Of a stretch of 64,000 nucleotides of DNA, positions 25,641 through 62,823 are shown piece after piece (position 1 is the first letter of the stretch; each line of letters starts with the position of its first letter). Made by a program: the position numbers and the translations under genes. Below the pieces are notes generated by a model. The model was not told the origin of the DNA and made no database searches. It saw nothing but the letters and a program-made list of their open reading frames with translations. Origin of the DNA: Motilimonas sp. E26 (GTDB taxonomy: Bacteria > Pseudomonadota > Gammaproteobacteria > Enterobacterales > CBDFNC01); NCBI RefSeq assembly GCF_021278025.1, contig NZ_JAIBHJ010000005.1, positions 124,001-188,000 of the forward strand. Reading direction: 5' to 3'.

Positions 25641-28600
25641 ATGAAGCCGACTCTCAATTCCGCTGACGCTCAATTAAAAACGCCACTTTGGCCGCTGGTT
25701 CAATACCAGATCCTGCACTTACTACCACTGTTTGCCGCTTTCATTGCTTTGCTGTTTTTTCTGCCTTATCTCCCTGTAGGAAAAAACCTCAACGAGCTCA
25801 TTGCACAATCTAATATTATCGGCTTAAGTTTCGCGATAGTTGCCACCCTTTACTTAGTGTTTGTGTTTCCGATTAGCTTATTACGCGCTTCAATCTCGAT
25901 TGCGTCCTTGCTCGGCTACTTACTGATCAGTCATTGCTTACTCTGGTTAATCTTAAGCAGCCAAGTAGCAGCTGAAAGCTTATTTGATATTCTTGGTAAC
26001 CCCATTTATCAGTGGCCGTGGGAAACCGAGTTAATGATGCGGTTTTTTGCTTGGCTTTGGCTTATTCAGCTAAGTTGGTTATTGGCCACATTAAACAACC
26101 CATTAAAATGGCTTTGGCTGGCCCTTTGTCCTTTTATTTACAGCTTTAGTTACTTAGTTATTATTACCTTTGCCGCTACCGACAACATTACCGAACTATT
26201 ACAATCACCTTTTGGCCTGATTGGTATCACCGCGGCACTATTTATACTCTTTTTCACTGCAGATTTACTTAGCCATCCTAATCGCTTAGGCCGACGCATC
26301 TTGGTTTATTTTATTGCTTGGTTATTTAGCTTTGGTTTAATCTGGCTCAGCACCGCAAGTCAAGTAGAAAAGTACGGCAGTCAATACTCCGCTTTAAGCT
26401 TTATGCTGGGCTTTGATCGCCAACAACAGGTTTCAATGGCACTTATTACCCTATTATCATTGCTTCCTTACATAGTGCTAATGATGGGTCTGATACAATT
26501 GCGCAAACTCAGTGTGCAAAGTATCTCACTCACACCTAAATCCTCTGCATCAGCGTCATCACACTCGTTACACATTAGTGCATGGCCATTAACTTTATAC
26601 GCCATTCTAATCACTTACGGCACCTTATACCCTTTTAGCCAGTGGCAGAGCATCCCCTTACCAAACTTGTTGTCAGTGCTTAGCAGCCAACCAGCAGGGC
26701 TAAGCAGTACCGATATTTTAGTAAACAGCATCATCTATTTACCTTTTGGTTTTATGCTGCATCAACACTTTTATGGCGCCGTGATTAAGCGCCATTTATG
26801 GGTGCTGCTCTGGGCATTTTTGCTCAGCTATAGCTTGGAATATTTACAATATTTTTTACCTGAACGAAATACTTCCCAGCTGGATTTATTACTCAACACC
26901 TTAGGTGGCGGGCTAGGCAGTTTAATCGCCGCTCGCTACCATCCAGACAGCAACTACTTAGAAAAAATAAACCGCCTGTATCAGCATTATATAGTTGATA
27001 GACCGAGTAGTTTGTTAGGTATGCTAAGTCTAGTTTGTATACTCATTGGCTACTTTAGCCCACTGCAACCAAACCTCAGCCCGTTCGGTGTATGGCAAAG
27101 TATTAAGCCCTTGTTCGCGCCTCACTTATACGACTTTAGCGCTTTCAAACTGGTGAGTTTTTTCCTACAACACCTGATTATGGGGTTATTACTACGGGCT
27201 ATTTTATTAGCGCCAAAACGCTGGTTAGCTTGGTTTACCCCCTTAGCCCTAACCTTATTGCACCCCTTTATCTTGTATCACTGGTTGAGTTTGGATTTAG
27301 TACTCGGCAGCATCAGTGCCAGCCTCATTCTGCTGTTTGCTTGCCAACAACAGCAAACCAGTCAACGGCAATATTCCGTCATAGCAGGGATAGTATTAGC
27401 TTGGTTACTCATCAAGGCGCTAATGCCCAGTACAGGTGAGATACAAGAATTTAACTGGGTACCTTTCTTTTATCAATTACAAAACTTAGCCTTTGCCACC
27501 ACTATGTTCAACGTGGTGTGGCCAGTATTTGCATTGGCTTTTTGTGCCATGCAACGCCATGCAAATTGGTTTGTTAAGCGAGAACTGATTTGTGCCATTG
27601 CGATAGCGTTACTTTTTATTGCCTTAGAGGCTCTGCAAGTCGGTCAGCCGGGTCGCTATCCCGATATTACCGATGCGATTATCGCCACTATAAGCTGGAT
27701 CTTTATTGTTCATTTTTGGCGCAATCGTTATGTTGCCTTAACTCAAAACCAACAGGAAGCTCACGTTCCTTATTGGCCCATCGCCGTATTTTCTTTGTGC
27801 TTACTGTTAGTTGGCGCCATGTTAAGCATTCATCAATTCAGCCAAATAACAACGCCAGCTCAAGCCGCACCCAATAGCTATCAATTTGACGTTAACAAAT
27901 TTAATTCACTGCGCCCTAGACTACCTTCACCTAATGTTGAAGAAATAGTGGCGTTGAAAAATGATGGCCAATACTTACGCTCCCTAGCAAGGCTTAGCCA
28001 GCGAGGTAAGTTAGAAAGCCAAGTACAGCTCGCTTATTTCACCCCAGAATCAGTGGATTTAGCGCAGCTGCATCAAAGCTTAATGGCACTTAAATTTAGT
28101 GGCCGCGGCAATGTACAAGTAAAACCCCTCGCCCTTGCTTATGACTGGCTTTATACCCGTTGGAGTCAGCAACAACTAATTGAGTTAAGGGCTAAGTTAC
28201 TGGAAGGTTGTCAATTTACCCAAAATTATATTGTCACCGAACAACTCTCTCCCTATAACGTATATTTGTATAACAGCCCATTGCAAGCCCTTATGGCCTG
28301 CGCTATTGCTGGCTATCAAGAATCACCAGAGTTTGATGCGGTGATGAATTTTACGGCTTACACTTGGCTAGAGCAGGTATTGCCAGTTTGGCGTCAGGTT
28401 ATGGGGCAACATGGCGGCTGGCATGAAGGTGCCGAATATGTCGGAATAGGCATTGGCCAAGCCATCTATCAATTACCTGCAATGTGGCGCAAAGCAACTG
28501 GTGACAATTTTTTCAACGACCCCAGCATCCGAGGCTTTGCCGATTTTCTACTGTATCGTATTCGGCCAGATGATAGTCAGATTCGCTGGGGTGATGGCCG

Positions 28601-29879
28601 CTTTTTCAACCGAGGCATACCCGATCAACTAGCCTTAGCACTTGAGCTTAACCACCAAGCTAGCTTAGATAGGATCAGTCATCGCGACCTAGCTCCTACC
28701 TCATGGCCTTGGGGACCGTTGGCTGGAGAGATGATCCCCGCCGCTCAACCCGCGCCACTGCCTTGGGCTAAATGGTTTGACGGTATTGGGCATTTAATCG
28801 CGCGTAGCAGTGACGATGATCAAGCCACCATGGTCAATTTTCGTGCAGGTGATAACTACTGGTCACACCAACATTTAGATCAAGGCAGCTTCACCCTATA
28901 CAAAGGTAGCCCTCTTGCTATCGACAGTGGCTTCTACGGCCCCGGCTATGGCGCTGATCACCATTTAAACTACAGCTATCAAACCATTGCCCATAACACC
29001 CTGACTATCACCGATCCCAAAGACAACCAGCCGATGCCCGCAAAAAACTCAGGCCAAGCCGAACGTGAAATAGCCAATGATGGTGGGCAAAGGCGTATTG
29101 GCTCTGGCTGGGGCAGCGCCGCGCCAGTTAGCCTAGCGCAATGGCAGCAACAAAGAGATACTTATCATACTGCTAAGGTGCTAGAGCAAGTCCAAACCAA
29201 TGATTTTGTATTAGTCTACGCAGATCTGACCCCTGCCTATACCAATCTAGCGTCCGGCCGAGGCGAATTTTCGGCCCGAACGCGTCGAGTAGAGTCCATC
29301 AAGCGGCTGTTTATTTATGATAAATTTTTAGACAGTGCCATTGTGTACGATCTGGTGCTAGCCACTCACAGCGCATTTACCAAACGCTGGTTACTCCATA
29401 CCAGCCAAGTTCCTCGCCAACAAGAAAATGGTGACTGGTTAGTACAAAATTATCCCCAATATGAACGCCAGCAAGAGGCTAACTTATGGGTATCACCCTT
29501 GCTACCACAAAAATCATACGTGCTTACCTTAGGCGGCCCAGAATTTGACTTTTATGTCGACGGAAAAAACTACGATGAAGCAGGAAAGATCAACACTATC
29601 ATCAACCAACAACGCCAACCAAAACCCGAGCCGGGTCAATGGCGATTAGAGATAATCCCTGAAAAGCAGCAACTTAACGATGAATTTTTGGTAGTTCTCA
29701 AGCCCGAGCTAGCCAATCGAACCAATATAACAAAGCACACTTTTTTCACCGAGCAGGGACGCCATCAGCTCGCCCTCTCGCGACTCAATTACCAGCTCAG
29801 TTTAATCATTACACCGACACAAATAGAGCTCAAACAGCGACAGGCGCAACAGGTGAAAACTTGGCACATAAAGAAATAG
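25641..29879 (+). CDS. VanZ-VanZ-heparinase II/III fusion protein
   Basis: A 1412-residue protein with an unusual architecture. Residues 1-300 are about eight membrane helices. About 317-437 is a VanZ-like unit (INSIIYLPFGFML-type text: VNSIIYLPFGFML, then YSLEYLQYFLPERNTSQLDLLLNTLGG). A second VanZ-like unit lies at about 600-695 (ALEALQVGQPGRYPDITDAI). One more helix is followed by a soluble heparinase II/III-type region from about 746, with alpha-barrel text and the conserved WSHQHLDQGSFTLYKGSP (about 1070) and AHNTLTI. The soluble part should lie in the periplasm. ATG 25641 follows AAGGA by 6 bases. It opens the polysaccharide island. Lyase action on a uronate-containing polymer is inferred. 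Confidence 0.85.
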   Translation: MKPTLNSADAQLKTPLWPLVQYQILHLLPLFAAFIALLFFLPYLPVGKNLNELIAQSNIIGLSFAIVATLYLVFVFPISLLRASISIASLLGYLLISHCLLWLILSSQVAAESLFDILGNPIYQWPWETELMMRFFAWLWLIQLSWLLATLNNPLKWLWLALCPFIYSFSYLVIITFAATDNITELLQSPFGLIGITAALFILFFTADLLSHPNRLGRRILVYFIAWLFSFGLIWLSTASQVEKYGSQYSALSFMLGFDRQQQVSMALITLLSLLPYIVLMMGLIQLRKLSVQSISLTPKSSASASSHSLHISAWPLTLYAILITYGTLYPFSQWQSIPLPNLLSVLSSQPAGLSSTDILVNSIIYLPFGFMLHQHFYGAVIKRHLWVLLWAFLLSYSLEYLQYFLPERNTSQLDLLLNTLGGGLGSLIAARYHPDSNYLEKINRLYQHYIVDRPSSLLGMLSLVCILIGYFSPLQPNLSPFGVWQSIKPLFAPHLYDFSAFKLVSFFLQHLIMGLLLRAILLAPKRWLAWFTPLALTLLHPFILYHWLSLDLVLGSISASLILLFACQQQQTSQRQYSVIAGIVLAWLLIKALMPSTGEIQEFNWVPFFYQLQNLAFATTMFNVVWPVFALAFCAMQRHANWFVKRELICAIAIALLFIALEALQVGQPGRYPDITDAIIATISWIFIVHFWRNRYVALTQNQQEAHVPYWPIAVFSLCLLLVGAMLSIHQFSQITTPAQAAPNSYQFDVNKFNSLRPRLPSPNVEEIVALKNDGQYLRSLARLSQRGKLESQVQLAYFTPESVDLAQLHQSLMALKFSGRGNVQVKPLALAYDWLYTRWSQQQLIELRAKLLEGCQFTQNYIVTEQLSPYNVYLYNSPLQALMACAIAGYQESPEFDAVMNFTAYTWLEQVLPVWRQVMGQHGGWHEGAEYVGIGIGQAIYQLPAMWRKATGDNFFNDPSIRGFADFLLYRIRPDDSQIRWGDGRFFNRGIPDQLALALELNHQASLDRISHRDLAPTSWPWGPLAGEMIPAAQPAPLPWAKWFDGIGHLIARSSDDDQATMVNFRAGDNYWSHQHLDQGSFTLYKGSPLAIDSGFYGPGYGADHHLNYSYQTIAHNTLTITDPKDNQPMPAKNSGQAEREIANDGGQRRIGSGWGSAAPVSLAQWQQQRDTYHTAKVLEQVQTNDFVLVYADLTPAYTNLASGRGEFSARTRRVESIKRLFIYDKFLDSAIVYDLVLATHSAFTKRWLLHTSQVPRQQENGDWLVQNYPQYERQQEANLWVSPLLPQKSYVLTLGGPEFDFYVDGKNYDEAGKINTIINQQRQPKPEPGQWRLEIIPEKQQLNDEFLVVLKPELANRTNITKHTFFTEQGRHQLALSRLNYQLSLIITPTQIELKQRQAQQVKTWHIKK

Positions 29880-30084
29880 CGATCTAGCGGCCGCCATGAA
29901 AGCTAGCAATGATCTGGAGCTGTTTACCTTGGTGGTTGAACTTGTTTGCGTCACCTCGCGCAAGGATCAGCAACAAAAAGTCACTTATTCCTTACCACCT
30001 AAAGTATGAAAATAAACAGATTTACCCTAACAAATTTATTTTTGACTACACTTAAAAAACGTTCAATTTGGCAGGAAAACGCGC

Positions 30085-31893
30085 ATGGATGCAATGGTTG
30101 GCATTTCAGGGTCCCCCAAGATTCGGGTTAACCAAGCACGGCAATTAACCCTGATTGATAGGCCCAACCTAAGCCTTGCCACCCAGCAACCTGAATTAAG
30201 CTTTACTTCAAACCAACTTGGTTTTTACTGCTTAATAGGCCACCCAAAGTGGCTGCAAACGGCATTAACCCAGCCAAGCGCACAGCAACAATTCAGCCAT
30301 CAGTTTATACAGTCACCGCAACAGGCGCTCAATCAACTTAACGGGCGCTTTGCTTTAGTTTATAGCGATACCAAGCAATCTATTGTCGCCAGCGATCCAT
30401 TCGCTAGCCAGTGTATTTATTACACCCAAGTAGAGCAGCAACTTATATTCGCCACCAGTATGAATATGCTCTTACTGCAATTACAGCAAGCCCCTGCTAT
30501 TGATCACCAAGCCATATTTAATTACCTCTACTTTCATATGATCCCTAGCCCGCAAACGATCTTCAAAGGGATTTACAAGCTAAAACCTGGTGAAATGCTG
30601 CGCTTTAGGGATGGCCAACTCACACACCAACAATATTTTGTCCCGCAATTCAGCGAAGACAAAAAGCAAAGTCAGCAGGAATTGCAACAAGCGTTATTCA
30701 CCACCTTACAAGAGGCCGTACAACGCCAGCTACCTGAGTCTGCCGAGCAAGTAGGTAGCTTTTTAAGTGGCGGTTTAGACAGCTCGACCATTACCGGCTT
30801 ACTCAACCAAATAAAAGCCAATAGCCCAAGCTTTTCGATTGGCTTTCATGTCGAAAAATACAATGAACTACCTTGGGCTGAGCTATGTGCGAAGCATTTT
30901 TCTAGCCCTATGCAGCAATTAAAAATCGAGGCCGATGAAACCGCCGACGTGATCGACAAGATCACCGCATGGCAAGATGAGCCATTTGGTAATTCCTCTG
31001 TCGTGCCCACCTATTTTTGTGCCCGCCTAGCTAAGCAGCATGGCATGAACACCCTATTAGCAGGTGATGGCGGCGATGAGCTGTTTGCCGGAAATGCCCG
31101 CTATGCCAAGCAGCAAATTTTTGAAATTTATCAACAACTACCAACGGCTATACAAAAAAACGTATGCGACCCGTTACTGCAATCTTCTACTTTAAAGCAA
31201 TGGCGCTTAGGGCAAAAAATACAAAGCTATCTCAACCAAGCCAAAATAAAGCTACCGACGCGATTAGAAAGCTACAACTTTATACATCGCCTTGGCCCAG
31301 AGCATTTTTTCACCCCTGAATTCTTAGCACAAGTGGATGTAGAGCAGCCCGAACAACAGAACCAAACTTGGTTTGATATACCAGAGCCTGCCAGCCAACT
31401 TAACCGAATGCTCTGGCTCGATTGGAAACATACCTTAGCCGATAATGACTTACGTAAAGTGAGTAGCATGTGCCAACTGGCAAACATAGACGTTCGCTTC
31501 CCGATGTTAGACCGTGAAGTAGTCGATCTTAGCTGTCGCATCCCCAGTCAGTGGAAGTTACCCTTTGGAAAGCTGCGTCATTTCTACAAGCAAAGCTTTA
31601 GAACCTTTCTGCCTCATGAGCTGCAAAAGAAACCTAAACATGGCTTTGGCTTACCCTTTGGTATTTGGACCAAAGAAAACCAAGCACTGCAAGATTTAGC
31701 CAGCACCGGTATCAATACGCTTTCTGGCCTTAATATTTTTTCGCCTCAGCTACTCAGCCAAGTTCAACAACTGCATCAACAGGAGCATGCTGAATACTAT
31801 GGCGAGCTAATTTGGATCCTGATGATGCTGGGGTTGTGGCTAAAAGCACACCAACAGCTGAAACTAAAAACCAACAAGGAAGCTGCTGCATGA
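30085..31893 (+). CDS. asparagine-synthase-like amidotransferase lacking the glutaminase cysteine
   Basis: 602-residue member of the AsnB family. The synthetase half is intact: the PP-loop SGGLDSS near residue 229 and GDGGDELFAGNARY near 328. The N-terminal glutaminase-like domain keeps its fold (LNGRFALVYSD, SDPFASQCIYY) but the catalytic Cys2 is missing: the start reads MDAMVGISG, or MVGISG from ATG 30094, where MCGIAG is expected. It must therefore use free ammonia, a partner, or another acceptor. AGGAAA precedes ATG 30085. It opens the main operon and overlaps the next gene by 4 bases (ATGA). I infer amidation or another adenylating step on a sugar acid, not asparagine synthesis. Confidence 0.88.
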   Translation: MDAMVGISGSPKIRVNQARQLTLIDRPNLSLATQQPELSFTSNQLGFYCLIGHPKWLQTALTQPSAQQQFSHQFIQSPQQALNQLNGRFALVYSDTKQSIVASDPFASQCIYYTQVEQQLIFATSMNMLLLQLQQAPAIDHQAIFNYLYFHMIPSPQTIFKGIYKLKPGEMLRFRDGQLTHQQYFVPQFSEDKKQSQQELQQALFTTLQEAVQRQLPESAEQVGSFLSGGLDSSTITGLLNQIKANSPSFSIGFHVEKYNELPWAELCAKHFSSPMQQLKIEADETADVIDKITAWQDEPFGNSSVVPTYFCARLAKQHGMNTLLAGDGGDELFAGNARYAKQQIFEIYQQLPTAIQKNVCDPLLQSSTLKQWRLGQKIQSYLNQAKIKLPTRLESYNFIHRLGPEHFFTPEFLAQVDVEQPEQQNQTWFDIPEPASQLNRMLWLDWKHTLADNDLRKVSSMCQLANIDVRFPMLDREVVDLSCRIPSQWKLPFGKLRHFYKQSFRTFLPHELQKKPKHGFGLPFGIWTKENQALQDLASTGINTLSGLNIFSPQLLSQVQQLHQQEHAEYYGELIWILMMLGLWLKAHQQLKLKTNKEAAA

Positions 31894-33125
31894 TATTGCT
31901 TTCATTGGAAATTATATTTTTATGGCTAATAGTGGGTAACCTAATTTTATTACTTAGCTACCGCCACTCCCTGAGACAGTTTTGGTTAGAGCCCATGATT
32001 AAGCAGCCCATTATTATCTTTGAAAGTGACGATTGGGGGCCGGGCCCAATCGAGCACGCTCAAACACTGCATAAGATCCAGCAGCTACTCAGTGAATTTA
32101 GAGACTATCGAGGCCATTGCGCTCATATGACCATAGGCACCGTCTTATCCATTCCGGATGCTGAGAAAATTCAGCAGAGTCAGTACCAAGAGTATGCTGG
32201 CCTCGACTTATGTCTGCCGCAATTTTCCGATATTCTCAGTAGCCTAAAACAAGGTCAGCAAGCGGGTGTATTTTCATTGCAATTACATGGTCGCGAGCAT
32301 TATTGGCCAAGTAAGCTACTCTCGGGAATACAGAAAAATAATGAATTAAAAGAATGGCTTGAACATGATAGCGCCTACACCGAAAAACTGCCATCGCCAC
32401 TACAAAGTCGCTGGAACCCAGCGCTAAACATTGCTGACATTGCGGTAGCGGTAAAGCAAGAGGTAGACTTATTTAAACGTTGTTTTGGTTTTGCCCCTGA
32501 AGTTGTAGTGCCACCGACTTTCGTCTGGAGCGAAGAGGTGGAAATCAGTTGGCGCAGTCATGGTATTCATACCATCATCACACCCGGACAGCGCTTTATC
32601 AAACGAACTGATAGCCATTTTAGTTCTGACAAAAAACGCATCGTTAATCATCAAACTTCTGCCACAGGGCAAACATACTTAGTAAGAAACCAATATTTTG
32701 AGCCCGAATTTGGTCACCAATGGCAAGAAGCGCTAGACAAAGTGTGTAACAGCATTGGATTGGCACGTCCCTGCCTATTTGAAACCCATCGATTTAATTT
32801 TGTTAATTCACCAGAGGGCAGCCAAAACAGCTTGAGCCAAATACGAAACCTATTGGAGCAAGCCATTAAAACATGGCCAGATTGTTGCTTCCTATCAAGT
32901 CTCGAGTTAGTACGTTTGCCACAACATGATCCCGATAAACTTCTGATCCATAACTGGCGCCATCGCTTACAGTGCTGGCGAAATCGCGCTTTTACGCTCC
33001 CAAAGTTTCGCCACCTTGCTACTTTAACTGGGCTGAACTTTATCTGCTGGCTCATCATACAGATGAAACCAATAGCCGATTTTAACTTGTGGCAACACCA
33101 AAACCAGAAAACGAGACCAAACTAA
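31890..33125 (+). CDS. membrane-anchored deacetylase-like protein (ESDDWG family)
   Basis: 411 residues with one N-terminal membrane helix (about 5-25) and a soluble domain starting IIIFESDDWGPGPIEH (about residue 41). The acidic ESDDW motif, the later LQLHGREH (about 132) and the ETHRFNF (about 297) have the spacing of a polysaccharide-deacetylase-like barrel, with Asp and His residues for a metal. The start is ATG 31890, overlapping the previous stop as ATGA, with GGAAG upstream; a longer frame from 31812 is unlikely. Similar proteins are usually annotated only as hypothetical or deacetylase-like. Substrate unknown; island context suggests a sugar. Confidence 0.65.
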   Translation: MILLSLEIIFLWLIVGNLILLLSYRHSLRQFWLEPMIKQPIIIFESDDWGPGPIEHAQTLHKIQQLLSEFRDYRGHCAHMTIGTVLSIPDAEKIQQSQYQEYAGLDLCLPQFSDILSSLKQGQQAGVFSLQLHGREHYWPSKLLSGIQKNNELKEWLEHDSAYTEKLPSPLQSRWNPALNIADIAVAVKQEVDLFKRCFGFAPEVVVPPTFVWSEEVEISWRSHGIHTIITPGQRFIKRTDSHFSSDKKRIVNHQTSATGQTYLVRNQYFEPEFGHQWQEALDKVCNSIGLARPCLFETHRFNFVNSPEGSQNSLSQIRNLLEQAIKTWPDCCFLSSLELVRLPQHDPDKLLIHNWRHRLQCWRNRAFTLPKFRHLATLTGLNFICWLIIQMKPIADFNLWQHQNQKTRPN

Positions 33126-33168
33126 AAAAAGTAATAAAATCATTAGTAGACACAAGGACGCGGACACC

Positions 33169-34104
33169 ATGGCCAGCAACATCTTGCACAAGCTCACCAG
33201 CGCAGACTACCTGCATAAAAACCTGACAGCATTAAAGCAGGAGCTTAAAGGTCAATGGTGGCAAATCACTCAACCCAACACTCCTGACCCAATTTTCATC
33301 ATAGGTTGCTCACGTAGTGGCACTACGGTCACCTTTGAAACACTAGGCGAATCAAATGAAGTGGTCTCATTAGGCTATGAAACCCCACAACTATGGCATA
33401 AGCTACACGGACCTCAGCATAATCAATGGCATTCCGAAGCCGCCACTGCAGAAGACGCCCAACCCGCTCATAGAAATGCTTATTTTAAACACTATTACCA
33501 ACGACTTAGCCACGGCCAAATTTTAGATAAAACCTGTATCAACATTTTGCGCTTACCCTATCTTTATCAGCTATTTCCCAATGCCAAATTTGTATTTTTA
33601 TACCGTAACGGGCGTGACAATATCAGCTCATTAATGGATGGATGGCGTAACCACAACCACTTTGGTCTCAACCAATTTCTTGGTGCAAGCCCTGAGCCAG
33701 TCAACATCGAGCATGGCGAATTCAATCAGTGGCACTTTTTTTTACCACCACAATGGCGTGACTACAATCAAAGTAGCCTTGCCGAAGTGTGTGCAATGCA
33801 ATGGCTCAGTGCCAACAATTTAGCATTAGAAGCAAAGCAGCTCATTCCCCCTCAGCAATGGGTTGAGCTGCAGTATGAGCAATTTATTGCACAACCCGTG
33901 GCACAGATAAATCGCGTTTGCCAGCAACTTGAGTTGAATTTCAACCCGCAGATACAACGCCACTGTGAACAACTATCATCAAGGCCCACCAGCATGGTTT
34001 CAGGTAAGCCCGAGCCAGAGAAATGGAAAAAACGTAACTACGACGCGATAGTGTCCATCCAAGATACCATTGCCCCACTAATGCAGAAGCTTGGCTATGA
34101 GTAA
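33169..34104 (+). CDS. sulfotransferase family protein
   Basis: 311-residue protein with the PAPS 5-prime-phosphosulfate loop IIGCSRSGTTVTFETL (about residue 43) and the 3-prime-phosphate segment VFLYRNGRDNISSLMDGW (about 144), where Arg and Ser bind the nucleotide. There is no signal peptide, so it should act in the cytoplasm, where PAPS is made, on a lipid-linked or nucleotide sugar. AAGGACG precedes the start. Its end overlaps the next glycosyltransferase gene by 8 bases. Acceptor unknown; sulfation of the island polymer is inferred. Confidence 0.85.
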   Translation: MASNILHKLTSADYLHKNLTALKQELKGQWWQITQPNTPDPIFIIGCSRSGTTVTFETLGESNEVVSLGYETPQLWHKLHGPQHNQWHSEAATAEDAQPAHRNAYFKHYYQRLSHGQILDKTCINILRLPYLYQLFPNAKFVFLYRNGRDNISSLMDGWRNHNHFGLNQFLGASPEPVNIEHGEFNQWHFFLPPQWRDYNQSSLAEVCAMQWLSANNLALEAKQLIPPQQWVELQYEQFIAQPVAQINRVCQQLELNFNPQIQRHCEQLSSRPTSMVSGKPEPEKWKKRNYDAIVSIQDTIAPLMQKLGYE

Positions 34105-35101: not shown

Positions 35102-35103
35102 GC

Positions 35104-36246: not shown

Positions 36247-36247
36247 A

Positions 36248-53453: not shown

Positions 53454-53461
53454 AAAGACTC

Positions 53462-55390: not shown

Positions 55391-55478
55391 ACCGCCTCCA
55401 GACTAAGCTTGCTACTAATGCTTAAGCCTATTTAGTGAGTCCAACTTGTTTTCTCTCTTGCTATATTTTGACTAAGCA

Positions 55479-56690
55479 CTAACTTCTCGACTTACTTGAT
55501 TTCACTTCGCGCGGCGGCGCCACACAAGGTAAAGACTTAGGGTGATGGTGCTGCGCTAATAAATCATGGTAGAAGCGAGTGTATTTTGCCACCATCGCCG
55601 ACAGAGAAAACTCATGCTCAACCCTAAGCCTAGCTGCTTCTGCATGTTTTAACAGCAAAGTCGGACGCAATAAGTAATTCAACATGGCACGCTCTAAATC
55701 GGCATCATTATCAGACTCGACTAAGGTACCCGTTTTACCATCGACAACCAGCTCGGCATTACCGCCGACATCAGTAGCAACCACAGTTTTACCCGCGGCC
55801 ATGGCTTCCAAAATCGTATTGCAAATACCTTCTCCAAGTGAGGGCAACACAAACAAATCCATACAATGCAGCCACTTATTAATGTCATCTTGCTGGCCAA
55901 GAAAAATCACAAATTGCGTTAAATGATGCTCCGCCACAAACGCCTTAAGCATCTCTTCACACTCACCACTGCCAATAATTAGCAAGCGTACTTTTTTGCC
56001 ATCACTTGCTGGATTATCAAGTAAAGAAGAAAAAGCCCGGAGTAAAAGTAACTGGTTTTTTACCAGTGCTAAGCGGCCGACCGTACCAATCACAAAGCAA
56101 TCTTTATCCACCAGCTCTTCCGGCAAAATTAAATGTTTCGCTGCTGGCTGAAAGCGTTCAGTATCAACACCATTACAAATATGACTGATCTTATGACGGC
56201 CGATCCCGACGCCTTGAATCAAGTAATCTAGGGTATGTTTTGACAGCGCGATATAAGCATCAACCCAATGGGAGTATAGCCAGCGGATAAAACGATACTT
56301 TAAACTACCGCCCGTTAAGTCCGTAACGTCCCAACCATGTTCACCATGGCAAGCAAGTGGTCGCGTTGCACACCAAGCTGGTAGTTGGTATTCCAACGCA
56401 GCTAAATTACGACTGTGTACAATATCAGGCTGATGACGCTTCACTAACTGCATAAAACGCCAGTAACAGGACCAATCCATGCCCGGCTTTTTATGTAAAT
56501 CAACCACTTCAACTGGCACTTTAATGCGCTCAATAAAGTCATCATGATCGGTTAAACAGACGATAATATGGCGCACCTTATCGGTCGGCATTTGGTTTAA
56601 AATATTGACCATGCCATTCTCTAAGCCTCCCGCATAAAATCGATAAACCACATGCATAATCAGAGGCCTAGCATCATTATCCATTTTCAT
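55479..56690 (-). CDS. GT4 glycosyltransferase, PEP-CTERM/XrtA system (type 2)
   Basis: 403-residue GT-B enzyme. IMHVVYRFYAGGLENGMVNI at the start, HSRNLAALEYQLPAWCA and HGEHGWDVTDL match the XrtA-associated sugar transferase subfamily (TIGR03088 as recalled). The donor domain has VIGTVGRLALVKNQLLLLRAF and SLGEGICNTILEAMAAGKTVVA. I start at ATG 56690 because AAGGAG lies 7 bases before it. It overlaps the end of the exosortase gene by 14 bases. Sugar unknown. Confidence 0.92.
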   Translation of the reverse strand: MKMDNDARPLIMHVVYRFYAGGLENGMVNILNQMPTDKVRHIIVCLTDHDDFIERIKVPVEVVDLHKKPGMDWSCYWRFMQLVKRHQPDIVHSRNLAALEYQLPAWCATRPLACHGEHGWDVTDLTGGSLKYRFIRWLYSHWVDAYIALSKHTLDYLIQGVGIGRHKISHICNGVDTERFQPAAKHLILPEELVDKDCFVIGTVGRLALVKNQLLLLRAFSSLLDNPASDGKKVRLLIIGSGECEEMLKAFVAEHHLTQFVIFLGQQDDINKWLHCMDLFVLPSLGEGICNTILEAMAAGKTVVATDVGGNAELVVDGKTGTLVESDNDADLERAMLNYLLRPTLLLKHAEAARLRVEHEFSLSAMVAKYTRFYHDLLAQHHHPKSLPCVAPPREVKSSKSRS

Positions 56691-58266
56691 TGGCAAGCTC
56701 CTTGGCAAAAACTCTGGCGCGACTTTGATTGATTGGTTGCGCCAACCAACGCCACAGCTCAGTTTGGTGAGTACGAAGAAAATCCATCACTAGCTGACGA
56801 TCATTTTGTTGCTCCACAGCAATGGCCACCACTTGACCAGACGAATAACCAAAAGGCGCATTCAACAGTTGGTTCAATTTAGTAGAAAAAGCTCCTAATG
56901 ATTGATAAGAACCAACCTGATACCAATAAAACACACTGATGCTGTGTTGGCCGTTTGCGAGTTTCAAGCGCCTAGTTACCAACTCCTGCTCACCAAAACT
57001 AAAGCGCTGAATATCCTGATCTTGCAATTGCCACAATTTTGCATCGTAGAAAATATTACTGACATTAATCAGCTCCTTTCCCTGGTGTTCAGTATGATAA
57101 TAAGCACTGAAAAGACTCAGTGAGGCGGACGATTTTTGGTAGTCTTGCTGCCAAGTCACATCAGCATTGGGAAACTCAGCCCGCCAAGTACTAAAATTGG
57201 CATTTATTGGCCCCTGCCAGCCTCCAGCGCTCGCAGGAAGAGCGTTAGCCTGTAATGCAATTTGCTGTTTGTCTTGCCCATATTGCCGCGACCATTGACC
57301 ATGTAGAGCGAAAGCAACAAAACCGACAGCAACCAAAGTTAGCGGTAAAAATTGTCCAGGTCCTTTTAACGAGTGACACTTAGCGCCAATACTAATACTG
57401 GCCGGCTTAAGCTCGGCTGGCTCAGAGAACCACCAACCAATAACAAATAGCACGGCGATCAAAAAAGAGAAGAAGAACCAACCATAAATTAGATGATCAA
57501 TATCACCAGCAATGCGCTGATCCACAAAGTGGTAAATCATAATAATCGACCATGCACGCAAACCATTAGCGATGATGGGCAATACAATCGACAGCAGCAC
57601 AAACAACAGCCGCTTGTAATAACGGGTAAAATGGATATAGGCAAACAAGCAACCCAAGCTTAGGGCAGCCAATAAGTAACGAATACCACTGCAGGTCCAA
57701 GCCACTTCAAACCGAGTCCCAGGAATAAAGATAAACATCCCTTCTTGATACACAGGCACACCACTAAAACGCAGTAAATACACGGTCATCTCTGCCGTCA
57801 CATATTGTAATTTGGGAATTAAGAACTCACCAAATGGCAAAGCAAAAAACACAAATAACAAAGGGAACAAGATCACTCGACACACTTGATTACCAAATGT
57901 TAGCCACACTAAGCTTGGCAGCATGGCCAGCACTGCAAATTGCTCCATCACTTGGATACCCAAACGTATCGCAACCAACCACAGCACAAACAGCCCAATG
58001 AGTAGCAATAAAGACCAAGGCTGAGTAGCGACGCTGACACAGCTTAATTGAAACCGCTTTTGCCAGATCAAATATAAACAAATAGGCAAAATGAAAAAGC
58101 AGTGGGCAAACGTTTCTATGCTATGCCAAATATGCACCATATTGAGCAAGGTAGAATAAAAAGAGACACTCCATAACAGCAATAGCCCAGCGAAACACGC
58201 ACTTCGTAACTGTTGCTGGGGCCGACTAAGCGTTAGCTCGTGTTGGTCAACTCCAGAGGCAGGCAT
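56677..58266 (-). CDS. xrtA: exosortase A with C-terminal EpsI domain
   Basis: Membrane cysteine transpeptidase of the exosortase family, which removes PEP-CTERM signals and anchors proteins at the surface. About 529 residues. Seven or eight N-terminal helices carry the triad: Cys in WTCSGIRYL (about 192), Arg in NGLRAWSIIMI (about 237) and His in DIDHLIYGW (about 258). From about residue 320 a periplasmic EpsI-type domain follows (AGGWQGPI, YHTEHQGKELIN, VFYWYQVG). The stretch of G before the start is the likely ribosome site for GTG 58269 or ATG 58266. It lies at the centre of the XrtA unit. Confidence 0.93.
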   Translation of the reverse strand: MPASGVDQHELTLSRPQQQLRSACFAGLLLLWSVSFYSTLLNMVHIWHSIETFAHCFFILPICLYLIWQKRFQLSCVSVATQPWSLLLLIGLFVLWLVAIRLGIQVMEQFAVLAMLPSLVWLTFGNQVCRVILFPLLFVFFALPFGEFLIPKLQYVTAEMTVYLLRFSGVPVYQEGMFIFIPGTRFEVAWTCSGIRYLLAALSLGCLFAYIHFTRYYKRLLFVLLSIVLPIIANGLRAWSIIMIYHFVDQRIAGDIDHLIYGWFFFSFLIAVLFVIGWWFSEPAELKPASISIGAKCHSLKGPGQFLPLTLVAVGFVAFALHGQWSRQYGQDKQQIALQANALPASAGGWQGPINANFSTWRAEFPNADVTWQQDYQKSSASLSLFSAYYHTEHQGKELINVSNIFYDAKLWQLQDQDIQRFSFGEQELVTRRLKLANGQHSISVFYWYQVGSYQSLGAFSTKLNQLLNAPFGYSSGQVVAIAVEQQNDRQLVMDFLRTHQTELWRWLAQPINQSRARVFAKELANENG

Positions 58267-58272
58267 CACCAG

Positions 58273-59460
58273 CTACCCCCCCGCCTGAAAAATTAGCTTG
58301 TCTAGACGGGCAAAACTAGTCTGCCAACTAAAGTTATCCTCTATCCAGCGTCTAGCTTGCACTTCTCCACTCGAGTCTAAGTGTTCAATGCAATGATTTA
58401 AAAACTCCTCTTCGTTGTCGGCAACATAAGTACATGGCATCAGTCCAATCCCCGTAAAAGCATGGCTACTGCCCACCACTTTTTTGTCCATTGCCAGGGC
58501 TTCTAACACCTTGTTTTGGATACCGCGACTGATCCTAAGGGGGGCCACAACTAAACGGGCATATTTCAAATAAGGACGAACGTCAGGCACCTTGCCCGTA
58601 ACCACTATGCCAGGGAGTTGAGCTAATTTAAGAATGCTTTTACTGGGGTTTGAGCCAACGATATAAAACTTAGCCTCGGGTTGATGGGCAAGCACGCCAG
58701 GCCAAACATGTTGAACAAACCAAACGACACCTTCAACGTTAGCCCAATAATCCATCGCCCCAGTAAAAACAACCACCGGCTCACCCTGCTTAAAAGGAGA
58801 GCTAACGTCCACCACAGCAGGGTCAAAATATTGAATATCAACCCCATTTTGCACCCAGTTAACCTCTTGTTGAGCACTGCTAGGTTGCCTATTTTGAAAG
58901 TCATCCGCTTCATTTTTAGATACGAATAAGCTTAGATTGAAAGCACTAGCAACCTGTGCCTCATACCTTGCTAACGCGTTGAATTCACGTCGATATAACC
59001 AAGACATAATGCCACTGGCTTGATTCGCGTATTGCAACCACTTGTCTGAATCTATATCAACAAAATCCATCACCCTAAATTGATTAGCATCATCAACATA
59101 TTGCGCCATCACAGACGAAAAAGTCAGCACCTTGATACCGGGGCATTCTTTAATGACTTGCTCAACCCAAGCTCGCATTTGCTGGCTTTGATAATACACT
59201 AAGCTCAATGGTCGGCCGTCTAACATGGCTCTTAAGCTTGCCACCTTATGCCAAAGAGGGTGGCGCTTTACCAAACAACAATCAGCCAAATCTTCTGCGA
59301 TTATTCCTTGATATTGCCAATCATCAGGATCATCAATAAAAGCACCTAACAACACTTGATATCGCTGCTTTAAATATTGCAACCAATGATAAGATCGGAT
59401 CTTATCGCCCTTATTAGGCGGATAAGGAACGCGATGGCATAAAAACAGAATTTTTTCCAT
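58273..59460 (-). CDS. GT4-like glycosyltransferase, PEP-CTERM/XrtA system (type 1)
   Basis: 395-residue GT-B enzyme. ILFLCHRVPYPPNKGDKIRSYH at the N-terminus, DFVDIDSDKWLQYA and LFVSKNEADDF match the first XrtA-associated sugar transferase subfamily (TIGR03087 as recalled). The C domain has VFTGAMDYWANVEGVVWF and PLRISRGIQNKVLEALAMDKKVV. The start ATG shares a base with the femAB stop (TAATG). The exosortase gene follows after about 6 bases. Sugar unknown. Confidence 0.93.
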   Translation of the reverse strand: MEKILFLCHRVPYPPNKGDKIRSYHWLQYLKQRYQVLLGAFIDDPDDWQYQGIIAEDLADCCLVKRHPLWHKVASLRAMLDGRPLSLVYYQSQQMRAWVEQVIKECPGIKVLTFSSVMAQYVDDANQFRVMDFVDIDSDKWLQYANQASGIMSWLYRREFNALARYEAQVASAFNLSLFVSKNEADDFQNRQPSSAQQEVNWVQNGVDIQYFDPAVVDVSSPFKQGEPVVVFTGAMDYWANVEGVVWFVQHVWPGVLAHQPEAKFYIVGSNPSKSILKLAQLPGIVVTGKVPDVRPYLKYARLVVAPLRISRGIQNKVLEALAMDKKVVGSSHAFTGIGLMPCTYVADNEEEFLNHCIEHLDSSGEVQARRWIEDNFSWQTSFARLDKLIFQAGG

Positions 59461-60482
59461 TACCCCAAGTCCTTCGCCAGCATTGGCCCTAACGCCCTAC
59501 TTATCGGTAAAGGCAGTTTTTTCCAAGCCTGAATAAACAATTGATACTTAGGGTTATTCGGACTGATATTCGGTAATTCTTGGCCATTCACCAGGTAATG
59601 TTCGTAAAACAAAGGGGTTGGCTGAAAACCCCAATGCTTTTTATAAGCGTGAGCACCACTGCCGATTTTACTACGGCCAAAGTCAAACTCTGTCATCCCT
59701 TGCTGCTGGGCATGGCACATCAACTGATAATACATATAGTCATTGCTCTTTAGGCTTCTTGCCACATTTGTTCCACCGCCATAAAAAGGTAAAACCTGAT
59801 TTTTATAATAAAAACTAAGTACACTCGACACCGCTTGTTCACCTGAAAAGACCGTCAATATGTCTACTTGACCATCAAAAACACGCTGCAAGGCTTTGAA
59901 ATAGGCTTTAGGGAAAACAGGCGTACCTAAGTTTCGGACACTTTCAGAATAAATAGCGAAGAAATTGTCACAATTAGACTCAATACGGTGGTTTAAGCCG
60001 TTAGCCAGCGACTGCCTGACAACTGCACGTTGTTTTTTCTTTATCTTAGCCAAAATGTCTTCGGCTGATGATGCCAATGTACAAGAGAAGTTTTCATGAC
60101 TGGCCTGAGAAGACCAAGTAGGACATTGTGGCTTGCGGTGGCGCAGCTCTAGGCAGTCCACTTTTAACTCTACTGCTAAGGTTTGTGCCTGCGCTATTAG
60201 CAAATCGGCTACCGCCTGACTATTTGCCAACACCCCAGCAGAAACGGCAAAAGGTAGCGAAATAAGTTTATTGCCAAATAGCCAACTTTTTATTTGAGCT
60301 AAAGGCAAAAGCCCGATAATTTCTCCCTGCTCTTCAACCAAGTAGAACCAGCAAGTATGACCATATACATCTTCAATCACTTGCTGCCAACCAGATAAGT
60401 GAAAAAACTCACCTTCGGGATGCTGCGCAACAAACTGATCCCATCGCTGACGTCGACTACTATCTAATAATAATATTTGCAC
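59460..60482 (-). CDS. FemAB-like protein, PEP-CTERM/XrtA system
   Basis: About 340 residues with an acyltransferase (GNAT-like/FemAB) fold: GEFFHLSGWQQVIEDVYGH, EEQGEIIGLLPLAQIKSW, and the C-terminal EFDFGRSKIGSGAHAYKKHWGF characteristic of the XrtA-associated FemAB subfamily (TIGR03019 as recalled). FemAB proteins transfer aminoacyl groups from tRNA, so this may add an amino acid to the polymer. I prefer GTG 60482, with AGGGA 7 bases before it; the frame extends to GTG 60509. It is coupled to the next glycosyltransferase. Confidence 0.9.
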   Translation of the reverse strand: MQILLLDSSRRQRWDQFVAQHPEGEFFHLSGWQQVIEDVYGHTCWFYLVEEQGEIIGLLPLAQIKSWLFGNKLISLPFAVSAGVLANSQAVADLLIAQAQTLAVELKVDCLELRHRKPQCPTWSSQASHENFSCTLASSAEDILAKIKKKQRAVVRQSLANGLNHRIESNCDNFFAIYSESVRNLGTPVFPKAYFKALQRVFDGQVDILTVFSGEQAVSSVLSFYYKNQVLPFYGGGTNVARSLKSNDYMYYQLMCHAQQQGMTEFDFGRSKIGSGAHAYKKHWGFQPTPLFYEHYLVNGQELPNISPNNPKYQLFIQAWKKLPLPISRALGPMLAKDLG

Positions 60483-60535
60483 AGACAATTCCCTCGCCTG
60501 AACGACCACATGGTCTAATAAATTTTAGGCCACTG

Positions 60536-61426
60536 CTAAATAAATGCCTGCTGAGTTTGTACTTGAGTTTGATGGCTCGGTTTTAAGAATAGCTCATCCA
60601 TTCGCTGCCATTGATATTGCTTTAGCAAGCGCTCCATACGTGGTTGAGTTTTCTCTAAATTAAGGTAGTGGCGAAACTTTGTTTTGCGGCTGATCTGAAA
60701 CGGCCTTGGCTGCTCTGGGTCTAACTCCCAAGGGTGAATATAAAAAATATAAGGATGCTGCTCCTGACGGTGAAATTGACGCAATGCCCAATGCATCAGC
60801 ATTTCAGGATACAAGCGAAAATAACCACCGCCCCCAATTGGGAAGTTTTTTCCTGCAATTTGTAAGGTTGAAATGGGGATTTCAAGTAATGCTGGATGAG
60901 CCAAAAATGCAAACCTTGGTAGTAACGGCGAGCCATAATGATCATGCTTTACTGGATACACACTGGAGCTGTAACGATAGCCCGCTTTTGCTAACACCTT
61001 ATAAGCCCATGGCGTTTGCTGATTAAACGAGAAACTTGGTGCACGATAACCTTTAACTTCTTGCCCCGAGATGTCTTCCAATAAGTGCTTACTACGCACA
61101 ACATCACTAACAAATTCTTGTTCAGTTAAGGTATTAACACGTTGATGGTCATAACCATGACTCGCAATTTCATGGCCCGACTTCGCAATGGCTTGCACAA
61201 CATCAGGATAACGTTCTGCAATCCAACCTAAGATAAAAAAAGTACTTTTTACTTGGTAGCGCTCAAATAAGGTTAATAATCTATCAGTATTGGCTTCGAT
61301 GCGACACTCAAACCGCTGCCAGTCTGCACGATCACTACATCCCTCAAAAGCCGAAACTTGAAAATAATCCTCTAAATCAACGGTCATCGCCGATGCCAAT
61401 GACGATTCACTGCAACTAGATGCCAT
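60536..61426 (-). CDS. polysaccharide deacetylase, PEP-CTERM/XrtA locus type
   Basis: 296-residue NodB-fold deacetylase. MTVDLEDYFQVSAFEGC (about residues 14-30) is the hallmark of the XrtA-locus subfamily (TIGR03006 as recalled). GHEIASHGYDHQRVN gives the metal histidines, and GYRAPSFSF and YIHPWELDPEQPRP follow. ATG 61426 overlaps the upstream stop as TAATG, with AGGGA 8 bases before it. It probably deacetylates an amino sugar of the exopolysaccharide. No signal peptide is visible. Confidence 0.92.
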   Translation of the reverse strand: MASSCSESSLASAMTVDLEDYFQVSAFEGCSDRADWQRFECRIEANTDRLLTLFERYQVKSTFFILGWIAERYPDVVQAIAKSGHEIASHGYDHQRVNTLTEQEFVSDVVRSKHLLEDISGQEVKGYRAPSFSFNQQTPWAYKVLAKAGYRYSSSVYPVKHDHYGSPLLPRFAFLAHPALLEIPISTLQIAGKNFPIGGGGYFRLYPEMLMHWALRQFHRQEQHPYIFYIHPWELDPEQPRPFQISRKTKFRHYLNLEKTQPRMERLLKQYQWQRMDELFLKPSHQTQVQTQQAFI

Positions 61427-62823
61427 TACCGAGATCCCTGAGCAAAACAAACAACTTCAATGGTTTGTACAAAGATAGCCAAATCAAACCAAAAGTTGCG
61501 ATGTTTAACGTAATAAAGATCGTATTGTAGTTTCTCTAATGCGTCCTTATCGCAAGCGCCATAGGGGTACTTAAGCTGCGCCCAACCAGCTAACCCTGGT
61601 TTAACATTATGGCGCTCGGCGTAATAGGGTAGCTGAGTACATAAACGCTCAACAAATTCAGGTTGTTCAGGTCTTGGACCTATGAATGACATTTCCCCCT
61701 TTAAAATATTAAATATTTGCGGTAATTCATCGATATGATATTTACGCATAAACTGACCGATTTTGGTGGCACGGCTGTCATTTTTTGCCGCCCACTGTGC
61801 GCCATTTTCTTGAGCATTAACCCGCATACTACGAAACTTAAGTATTTCAAATGGTTTACCGGCATAACCAATACGAGTTTGACGGTAGAAGATAGGGCCT
61901 TTGTCTTCTAAGTAAATGGCCAACATCACAAATAATAATAATGGCCAAAGTAGGCTAATGATGATCAAAGCTAGGCCGAGATTAAGCATGTTAGATGCAA
62001 TACTGCGTATACTGTCAGCACGAACAAAGCCATTAGAATAAACCAACCAGCTTGGATATAGCTGATTAACTGCGATTTGACCGGTTTCACGTTCGATAAA
62101 ATTCAGCACATCCATCACCTCAACACCATATAGCTTACAGGAAAATAAAGCTTGTAATGGGAGATGGCCGCGGCGCTCGTCACAAGCAACCACTATCTCA
62201 TCGATTCCGTGTTCTTTGACCATTTGAGTGAGCAAGTTAGGCTGATCTAAATCCATTGGCATTTTTAAATCCCCAAGCTCGATTTCGTCATCTCCAGCCA
62301 TAGGCACAAAACCAACGATAGTAAAGCCTTTTTTATCCGCTTCACGGCGCATTCGCTGACAGATAATCTCAGCTCGCTTCCCAGCACCTATCACGAGCAC
62401 CTTATGACGGAATGCTTCACCAAACTTTTGTGAGATAACATAACGAAATCCCATTAACATTAATAAAGAAGTAAATATCGACAGGCTGATGGCATGAAAG
62501 GAGGAACTGAGAGCGTTGAGGCCGGATAAAGATAAAGCTAATAATAATACCAAACTACAGATAATGATTAAGCGCCGACTTACTCCCTCGCCATCACAGC
62601 GCAGGCGAGGGTTATAGAGACCAAGACTTAACATTAGAATAATTATCACAAAAGGAATGACTAAAGCCTCAATGAGTACTTGTAATTGATTACTCTGCGC
62701 TTCATCGCCATACCAATAGAACCCTGCACTAACAAGCAAAAAGCCAAGATAAACAATAGTTAACTCTGAAATAACTAAAAGCCGACTCGCTTTACCTGTA
62801 CTTGCAAATGTGAAAGAACTCAT
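61426..62823 (-). CDS. priming sugar-phosphate transferase, PEP-CTERM/XrtA system
   Basis: 465-residue polyisoprenyl-phosphate sugar-1-phosphate transferase that begins repeat-unit assembly. Five N-terminal helices (about 10-140), a central Rossmann-like CoA-binding-type domain (HKVLVIGAGKRAEIIC, about 158), then the catalytic bacterial sugar transferase domain: GPIFYRQTRIGYAGKPFEILKFRSM and FIGPRPEQPEFVE. It belongs to the XrtA-associated subfamily (TIGR03013 as recalled). I start at ATG 62823 with AAGGA upstream. It is first in the minus-strand XrtA operon and divergent from the export gene. It is the only priming enzyme in the window. Confidence 0.93.
   Translation of the reverse strand: MSSFTFASTGKASRLLVISELTIVYLGFLLVSAGFYWYGDEAQSNQLQVLIEALVIPFVIIILMLSLGLYNPRLRCDGEGVSRRLIIICSLVLLLALSLSGLNALSSSFHAISLSIFTSLLMLMGFRYVISQKFGEAFRHKVLVIGAGKRAEIICQRMRREADKKGFTIVGFVPMAGDDEIELGDLKMPMDLDQPNLLTQMVKEHGIDEIVVACDERRGHLPLQALFSCKLYGVEVMDVLNFIERETGQIAVNQLYPSWLVYSNGFVRADSIRSIASNMLNLGLALIIISLLWPLLLFVMLAIYLEDKGPIFYRQTRIGYAGKPFEILKFRSMRVNAQENGAQWAAKNDSRATKIGQFMRKYHIDELPQIFNILKGEMSFIGPRPEQPEFVERLCTQLPYYAERHNVKPGLAGWAQLKYPYGACDKDALEKLQYDLYYVKHRNFWFDLAIFVQTIEVVCFAQGSR

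Follow-up and report, generated by a model that had tools for sequence, protein, structure and literature searches.

A convergent sulfotransferase and VanZ-heparinase cassette that probably shares one exopolysaccharide assembly line with the XrtA locus of Motilimonas

Results

Organisation of the two gene blocks

The subject of this study is a polysaccharide island of the gammaproteobacterium Motilimonas, contained in a stretch of 64,000 nucleotides that we refer to as the window (positions 124001-188000 of contig C45 in genome G000, a 4.6 Mb assembly in 84 contigs). Pfam and NCBIfam scans bear out the gene blocks, strands and coordinates given by a first-pass annotation of this DNA, with a plus-strand block (25626-42302) converging on a minus-strand block (47388-62853) that carries on beyond 63.1 kb and past the window end. 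That annotation had proposed that the two halves complement each other, and we consider it very probable, judging from gene content and from comparison between genomes, that both blocks form a single Wzx/Wzy-type exopolysaccharide assembly line linked to exosortase A (XrtA).

The minus block is a canonical XrtA/PEP-CTERM exopolysaccharide locus. Ten XrtA-specific NCBIfam models score over their cut-offs inside the window, the export gene at 63077 included, and six further genes of the system lie directly past it (chain length, kinase, outer membrane protein (OMP), ATPase, PrsR and PrsK). The families over cut-off comprise EpsB2, stp1-3, FemAB, deacetylase, amidotransferase, Wzy/ligase, export, chain length, kinase, OMP and ATPase, with the PrsK/PrsR regulators matching at 648 and 668 bits. 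As first described, this half holds the priming transferase, exosortase A, ligase-type polymerase and XrtA glycosyltransferases, all over NCBIfam cut-off, and the Pfam and NCBIfam scans gave no flippase match in it. The divergent operon past the window encodes the chain length, kinase, OMP and ATPase proteins together with a LacI regulator; beyond it, on the other strand, lie PrsR, PrsK and an HprK-related kinase. The genes of the core that fall within the window are:

47388-48692, minus, Wzy/O-glycosylation-ligase-type polymerase (TIGR03097; 459 bits, cut-off 188)
48685-50040, minus, PaaK/CapK-like adenylate-forming (CoA-ligase-like) protein (NF045666; 142 bits, below the cut-off of 300)
50087-50908, minus, sulfotransferase 4 (ST4; Sulfotransfer_3 53 bits, Sulfotransfer_1 44 bits)
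50909-52237, minus, GT4 glycosyltransferase b (GT4b; Pfam)
52218-53453, minus, stp3 glycosyltransferase (TIGR04063; 575 bits, cut-off 442)
53462-55390, minus, XrtA amidotransferase with intact MCG start (TIGR03108; 978 bits, cut-off 817)
55479-56708, minus, stp2 glycosyltransferase (TIGR03088; 423 bits, cut-off 409)
56677-58269, minus, exosortase A with EpsI-type C-terminal domain (TIGR03109; 312 bits, cut-off 208)
58273-59460, minus, stp1 glycosyltransferase (TIGR03087; 473 bits, cut-off 317)
59460-60509, minus, FemAB-type XrtA protein (TIGR03019; 426 bits, cut-off 260)
60536-61450, minus, XrtA polysaccharide deacetylase (TIGR03006; 417 bits, cut-off 276)
61426-62853, minus, priming glycosyl-phosphate transferase (TIGR03013; 504 bits, cut-off 393)
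63077-63718, plus, XrtA exopolysaccharide export protein (TIGR03027; 237 bits, cut-off 180), whose operon goes on past the window

The plus block consists of twelve genes, separated by -14 to 53 bases from 30085 onward after a first gap of 205 bases, these spacings being computed with start codons that we picked for two genes (31890 and 41103). Promoter and terminator scans of 41.5-48 kb performed no better than on shuffled sequence, and the transcription units are therefore proposed from gene spacing only. Between the blocks lie a membrane sulfatase-like gene and a GT2 gene on the minus strand and a sulfotransferase gene on the plus strand. The genes of the plus block and the middle part are:

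25626-29879, plus, VanZ-heparinase II/III fusion, 1417 aa (Pfam VanZ and Hepar_II_III_C)
30085-31893, plus, asparagine-synthase-like (AsnB-like) protein, glutaminase Cys absent (Pfam Asn_synthase, 237 bits)
31890-33125, plus, NodB/CE4-GH57-fold membrane-anchored deacetylase-like protein (GH57 24.0 bits, cut-off 21.2; start chosen by us, the listed open reading frame (ORF) beginning at 31812)
33169-34104, plus, sulfotransferase 1 (ST1; Pfam Sulfotransfer_3, 96 bits)
34091-35101, plus, GT2 glycosyltransferase a (GT2a; Pfam)
35104-36246, plus, GT4 glycosyltransferase a (GT4a; Pfam)
36233-36853, plus, TPR-like protein (weak TPR_19, below Pfam cut-off)
36903-38408, plus, Wzx-type flippase (PF13440, 204 bits)
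38413-39198, plus, CE4 polysaccharide deacetylase (deac2; Polysacc_deac_1, 100 bits)
39195-40115, plus, GT2 glycosyltransferase b (GT2b; Pfam)
40117-41049, plus, GT2 glycosyltransferase c (GT2c; Pfam)
41103-42302, plus, putative sulfotransferase 2, by motif only and unconfirmed (start chosen by us, ORF 41061-42302)
42315-44369, minus, membrane alkaline-phosphatase-superfamily ('sulfatase-like') protein with Thr at the formylglycine position (Pfam Sulfatase, 141 bits)
44339-45265, minus, GT2 glycosyltransferase d (GT2d; Pfam)
45464-46477, plus, sulfotransferase 3 (ST3; Sulfotransfer_3, 117 bits)

The claim that the only flippase belongs to the plus half agrees with a search of the whole genome for the PF13440 family, in which the window flippase is the sole strong match and the next scores 34.7 bits. 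The three deacetylase-type proteins and the heparinase-type fusion, which joins VanZ to heparinase II/III, are likewise present as described. The plus block was credited with three glycosyltransferases and in fact has four (34091, 35104, 39195 and 40117), a fifth (44339-45265, minus) sitting between the blocks; the sulfatase-like gene exists, its place being on the minus strand in that middle part and not in the plus operon. None of the flippase, sulfotransferases, VanZ-lyase fusion or Cys-less AsnB-like protein scores above cut-off with an XrtA-specific NCBIfam model, and the models of this kind that we met cover the core only.

Conservation within Motilimonas

The fusion and xrtA are both found in each of the four Motilimonas genomes searched, namely G000, M. 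eburnea YH6 (G001), M. cestriensis MKS20 (G002) and M. pumila PLHSC7-2 (G003). M. cestriensis keeps all tested window genes in mirrored order over the stretch read. M. eburnea keeps one end of the island (VanZ-HepII, AsnB-like, deacetylase, ST1 and GT4a) as well as the other (Wzy and CoA-ligase through to the core), and differs in the centre, which contains another flippase, a polysaccharide pyruvyl transferase, glycosyltransferases, and CARDB and HEAT-repeat proteins.

In M. pumila the two sets are found on separate contigs. Contig C95 holds the CoA-ligase, Wzy, sulfatase-like, TPR, glycosyltransferase, pyruvyl transferase, flippase, GT4a, GT2a, deacetylase, ST1-like, AsnB-like and VanZ-HepII genes, flanked by a UvrD-type helicase and by a carboxylase that also adjoins the G000 island. 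Contig C117 holds, far from its ends, ST4, GT4b, stp3, the amidotransferase, stp2, XrtA, stp1, FemAB, a deacetylase, the initiator, export and regulators. Neither part alone, as read, would be expected to make and export a polymer, and an assembly error could conceivably account for the split. The centre of the island is thus swapped between species (window 36233-47387 compared with L027 and L029-L030), with a flippase, deacetylase, glycosyltransferases and sulfotransferase in the window and a flippase with a polysaccharide pyruvyl transferase in M. eburnea and M. pumila. This variation suggests that the type of polymer is changed by exchanging cassettes while the XrtA chassis stays fixed.

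Comparison beyond the genus

We identified 55 genomes with xrtA over cut-off and, excluding the four Motilimonas, read 30 that were picked for contig room, to 20 kb each side of xrtA where contigs allow. With tblastn, Wzy_PEP was found in 21/30, the CoA-ligase in 13/30, AsnB-like in 8/30 and the window-type flippase in 7/30; at least one sulfotransferase occurs in 9/30, including two genomes (G180 and G149) that had supplied sequences to the profile. Twelve genomes of the order, four of them Motilimonas, carry xrtA over cut-off, and in 8/12 a PF13440 gene above 170 bits lies on the same contig at most 25 kb from it; G003, G018, G019 and G040 had no such gene within that distance.

A close counterpart is G180, a single-contig genome from another order, where both halves stand in one two-part locus much like that of the window. 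Its plus strand encodes a GT2, flippase, sulfotransferase, deac2, GT2b (49 %), GT2c (50 %) and GT2d (43 %), then the sulfatase-like protein (44 %), ST3 (40 %), Wzy and AsnB-like, and its minus strand runs from the CoA-ligase to export; the order deac2-GT2b-GT2c-GT2d-sulfatase-sulfotransferase is the same as in the window. In G149 the XrtA operon leads directly into Wzy, ST1, deacetylase, GT2a and GT4a, and in G139 a 35 kb stretch contains the core, CoA-ligase, Wzy, AsnB-like, GT4a, sulfatase-like, flippase, HepII and VanZ. A Nitrospirota metagenome-assembled genome (MAG) has within 13 kb a heparinase domain, stp3, amidotransferase, CoA-ligase (52 %) and an XrtA-like gene (26 %). G119, likewise from another order than Motilimonas, splits as M. 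pumila does and on long contigs, with core and export on C1 and tailoring genes, flippase, Wzy and CoA-ligase on C3; both of its PF02397 initiators belong to C1, where the closer one is some 40 kb away from xrtA, and C3 has none. Five genomes with tailoring genes (G139, G146, G128, G204 and G257; three of them <90% complete) have one PF02397 gene each.

Co-occurrence with xrtA and points against a single line

The first-pass annotation had pointed to synteny and co-occurrence of the plus-strand set with xrtA as one means of checking its idea. Synteny is kept, as described above, and the tailoring markers are near-confined to genomes with xrtA. Across 229 genomes of the class xrtA is over cut-off in 45. 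The deacetylase marker A3 (E <= 1e-10) was found in nine genomes, all nine with xrtA; the sulfatase-like marker A4 (E <= 1e-30) in 11, ten with xrtA; and relatives of the fusion or its lyase (A5) above 900 bits in nine, eight with xrtA. An operon of the plus type that is widespread without xrtA and has its own initiator was not found in this sample. The exception to both A4 and A5 is G110, whose locus breaks off at a contig end within the XrtA-type amidotransferase, so that its xrtA may lie in an assembly gap. As a separate observation, the VanZ-heparinase gene of G110 (L151, G110:C5:34655-38272) contains three in-frame stops and looks interrupted or frameshifted.

A number of points weigh against the reading of one assembly line. 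The hypergeometric p-values of 2e-7 (A3), 3e-7 (A4) and 1e-5 (A5) are optimistic, with kinship uncorrected and inflating them. The profiles A3 (G149), A4 (G180) and A5 (G139, G146 and G119) hold rows taken from XrtA loci, and the matches are therefore partly by construction; without these rows and G000, xrtA accompanies A3 in 7/7 genomes, A4 in 8/9 and A5 above 900 bits in 4/5. The 900-bit line was itself set after the scores were seen. At E <= 1e-20, A5 matches 22 genomes; xrtA scores over cut-off in 17 of them and below it in one (G102), and gives no hit in the other four (G110, G248, G254 and G281), such weaker relatives in the few genomes without xrtA being mainly VanZ-only. At 1e-20, A5 finds nothing in G180 and only a VanZ-like match in G149, and the fusion is consequently not obligatory. 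Contig breaks leave linkage unsettled in G079, G226 and G146. Initiators were sought as PF02397 and flippases as PF13440, WecA-type initiators and other flippase families falling outside these searches. Finally, G000 has two further PF02397 genes (C78 and C16) and two further Wzy_C genes elsewhere, and M. pumila has a short PF02397 gene at 254 kb of C95, some 21 kb away from the block; the G000 gene on C16 is similarly short and is unlinked to the island.

Catalytic features of the tailoring enzymes

The fusion has an N-terminal hydrophobic module, VanZ-like regions and a C-terminal lyase domain that is preceded by 14 hydrophobic segments. A profile of four fusion orthologues matches heparinase II (2fuq) at E 1e-38 over about 540 residues of this domain, which is thus homologous to heparinase II and differs from it in being fused to membrane VanZ-like modules and encoded in a biosynthetic locus. 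By eye, fusion residues Y938, H1081, H1083, D1100 and H1123 align with Y257, H406, H408, D425 and H451 of 2fuq. The catalytic Tyr and His, Tyr257 and His406 in the numbering of heparinase II, are among the residues kept; the stretch around His202/Glu205 aligns loosely with the fusion, in which N878 and N883 are invariant. VanZ and HepII also occur as single ORFs in G119, G139 and G146, all from other families, so the fusion is not an oddity specific to Motilimonas. Its N-terminal module of 310 residues (window 25626-26555) matches no Pfam family. Relatives of this module without a lyase are seen in Nitrosospira sp. NpAV and several MAGs, the NpAV copy lying about 5 kb from an XrtA-type amidotransferase and 8 kb from XrtA.

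Two amidotransferase-like proteins had been proposed. The XrtA one retains an intact MCG start, while the plus-strand AsnB-like protein lacks the glutaminase Cys and scores just 242 bits against TIGR03108 (cut-off 817), making it a second copy outside the XrtA family. The MCG start was found in 0/20 full AsnB-like copies compared with 16/17 XrtA amidotransferases, the remaining one being cut by a contig end (ATG starts only were examined and one partial AsnB-like copy was excluded). The ATP-pyrophosphatase loop SGGxDSS is kept as SGGLDSS, and with the Cys missing and the loop retained, ammonia or some other amine is the probable substrate of this protein. Lasso-peptide cyclases and beta-lactam synthetases of the asparagine-synthase fold are likewise without the glutaminase Cys.

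At the site of the formylglycine motif, which in sulfatases reads C/S-x-P-S-R, the sulfatase-like protein has T-A-P-S-L in 5/5 aligned members of A4; among solved structures it is closest to sulfatases and phosphonate monoester hydrolases. Since Thr replaces the formylglycine Cys/Ser, a phospho-transferase role seems at least as likely as a sulfatase role.

A sequence search of the PDB with the GH57-like deacetylase gave nothing useful, and a fold search was used in its place. The model (pLDDT 79) has a NodB fold behind an N-terminal helix and matches the polysaccharide deacetylase 3rxz (Z 17.6, rmsd 2.8 over 230 residues); a further match is to the deacetylase portion of human heparan-sulfate NDST1 (8ccy; Z 15.2, rmsd 3.8 over 233 residues), at a score that many other NodB-fold entries equal or exceed. 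The required DD and HxxxH residues are present, as ESDDWG and HGxxH, in 4/4 aligned members.

Of the four sulfotransferases first counted, three pass Pfam cut-offs within this Wzx/Wzy locus (33169-34104, 45464-46477 and 50087-50908), the last of them lying in the minus block. The fourth was recognised by motif only: GTEKTGTTSLQ in 41061-42302 is presumably a P-loop-like sulfotransferase motif, and this ORF has neither a Pfam nor a PDB sulfotransferase match up to E 10, with a structure model (pLDDT 36, from alignment A6 of two rows 91 % identical) that is unusable. Among solved structures, ST1 and ST3 are most closely related to protein-tyrosine sulfotransferases. An NDST-like reading of ST1 was set aside, as its profile A8 has its best matches in tyrosine sulfotransferases; no NDST appears among its 11 matches up to E 0.1, an absence that excludes nothing. 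Supply of 3'-phosphoadenosine-5'-phosphosulfate was checked through adenosine-5'-phosphosulfate kinase, which is present in 4/4 Motilimonas genomes, yet also in 11/14 control genomes, as befits a common gene.

Discussion

Taken together, conserved synteny, the complementary splits in M. pumila and G119 and the co-occurrence in 229 genomes support the proposal of one assembly line. The splits are particularly informative, since in both the polymerase goes with the flippase and tailoring genes and export goes with XrtA. In such a line the minus block would start the lipid-linked repeat unit through its EpsB2-type priming transferase, add conserved core sugars (stp1-stp3 and GT4b) and modify the unit through the amidotransferase, FemAB and deacetylase; together with the divergent operon past 63 kb it would also provide polymerisation, export and coupling to exosortase protein sorting. 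The plus block would act as a polymer-specific cassette, bringing more glycosyltransferases, the Wzx flippase, deacetylases and sulfotransferases, together with the AsnB-like protein as a putative ATP-dependent ligase of the asparagine-synthase fold; the membrane enzyme between the blocks may act on phospho- or sulfo-esters. The membrane-anchored heparinase-type lyase probably trims or clears polymer in the periplasm, by analogy with AlgL, which has such a role in alginate.

The cassette is unusual and exchangeable, and it probably relates to sulfation. A sulfated, amide-bearing product, as first suggested, is plausible, with the amide and sulfatase part of the idea weakened by the absence of catalytic residues (the AsnB-like Cys and the formylglycine Cys/Ser). 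A more specific and doubtful possibility is that a widespread, as yet unnamed 'second half' of XrtA loci makes a glycosaminoglycan-like sulfated polymer in Gammaproteobacteria. Here the NodB-fold N-deacetylase beside a sulfotransferase would free and sulfate amino sugars, the glutaminase-less asparagine-synthase relative would join carboxylate and amine as an amide, and the membrane-tethered VanZ-heparinase would trim the chain during export. The NDST1 match and the deacetylase-sulfotransferase neighbourhood, which recurs in G149, G226 and G079, favour this, and the closeness of ST1 and ST3 to tyrosine sulfotransferases among solved enzymes counts against it.

Two-part clusters of this kind have been described before. 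The 75 kb psc1 cluster of Rubrivivax gelatinosus is syntenic with one in Thauera MZ1T (PMC3684757), and in a screen for mutants that had lost aggregation 25 Tn5 insertions fell in it, hitting among others genes for export, a glycosyltransferase, asparagine synthase, CapK, wzy and wzx, with insertions in either part lowering or abolishing the same aggregation phenotype (PMC3684757). In Thauera, flocculation of a mutant is restored by a deacetylase gene from the distal block, and Fourier-transform infrared spectra are consistent with deacetylation of the exopolysaccharide (PMC4784049). We regard these results as the best outside evidence for both blocks serving one polymer, and a two-block line is accordingly known in kind. 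Like the island, psc1 and Thauera cluster 1 comprise export, ATPase, XrtA-type deacetylase, FemAB, glycosyltransferases, asparagine synthase, CapK and wzy, with asparagine synthase, GT2s, a sulfatase, a polysaccharide deacetylase and wzx in the distal part, a likeness at the level of published annotation and gene order. The published gene lists name no sulfotransferase, heparinase or VanZ, so the view that the island exceeds a standard XrtA locus holds for these genes and not for a two-part layout as such. Compared with the XrtA/PEP-CTERM (EpsH) locus (PMC1569441), the window shares the ten models and the chain length, kinase, OMP, ATPase, PrsR and PrsK genes beyond it, and adds the convergent block with flippase, sulfotransferases, VanZ-lyase fusion and Cys-less asparagine-synthase relative. 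The xss (synechan) cluster of Synechocystis also has sulfotransferases within a Wzx/Wzy cluster for a sulfated exopolysaccharide; the word exosortase is absent from the paper's main text, and its authors stated in 2021 that sulfotransferases were not known to them in other bacterial exopolysaccharide clusters (PMC8205485).

It is conceivable, if unlikely, that the product is a glycan on PEP-CTERM proteins, with TIGR03097 acting as an O-glycosylation ligase and the tailoring enzymes decorating protein glycans, or the sulfotransferases the proteins themselves. The model of the Wzy-like protein is indeed titled putative O-glycosylation ligase, exosortase A system-associated, and the tyrosine sulfotransferase relationship of ST1 and ST3 would fit; however, genes for secreted-polymer export, chain length and kinase adjoin, the similar Rubrivivax/Thauera cluster governs biofilm and floc polymer (PMC3684757, PMC4784049), and a simple regex over 104-207 kb of the contig, that stretch only, found no PEP-CTERM-like tail. 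Less probable still is an independent surface glycan pathway that adjoins the XrtA locus by chance and borrows its initiator from elsewhere. The opposite strands of the blocks, the additional PF02397 and Wzy_C genes of G000 and the separate contigs in M. pumila and G119 could be read this way, but the XrtA-type Wzy and CoA-ligase accompany the tailoring genes in each of the two split genomes, where the XrtA stretch that was read yielded no Wzy_PEP; the searches detected no initiator beside the split-off sets (bar the short PF02397 gene 21 kb away in M. pumila), and the markers are almost confined to xrtA genomes. The heparinase II and sulfatase homologies could also indicate a scavenging locus in which the fusion and the sulfatase-like gene break down foreign sulfated polysaccharides. 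We rejected this, the least probable reading of all, on the biosynthetic context and the absent formylglycine residue: the genes scanned in the two blocks included none recognisable as serving uptake or sugar catabolism, the fusion is membrane-embedded by hydropathy, and both genes track with biosynthetic genes and xrtA.

With a single XrtA-linked line as the preferred reading, the novelty lies in the sulfotransferase/VanZ-heparinase cassette and in its being inherited together with xrtA. Our literature search, conducted outside most subscription journals, returned no report of such a cassette in an XrtA locus, and a term search of the main text of the 2026 Motilimonas genome paper (PMC13182010) found no exopolysaccharide, PEP-CTERM or exosortase. 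Floc and biofilm polymers of several bacteria depend on clusters of this type (PMC3684757, PMC4784049, PMC9850573). A second block, equipped with a lyase fusion and sulfotransferases of its own, accompanies xrtA even where the two are not linked, and it therefore offers candidate genes for sulfated exopolymers outside cyanobacteria; a 2023 paper described sulfated glycoconjugates in sludge granules with few sulfotransferase genes to account for them (PMC10483923).

Two minor observations concern neighbouring genes. A three-part carboxylase of 1521 aa (window 19430-23995), with carboxyltransferase, biotin carboxylase and weak biotinyl domains, adjoins the island in G000, G002 and G003; in G001 no copy was seen up to about 14 kb from the fusion. 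An HprK-related kinase A and a neighbour without known function accompany PrsK in G000 (L001 11656-13586), and the same pair lies near the tailoring loci of G119 and G146, on contigs other than that of xrtA.

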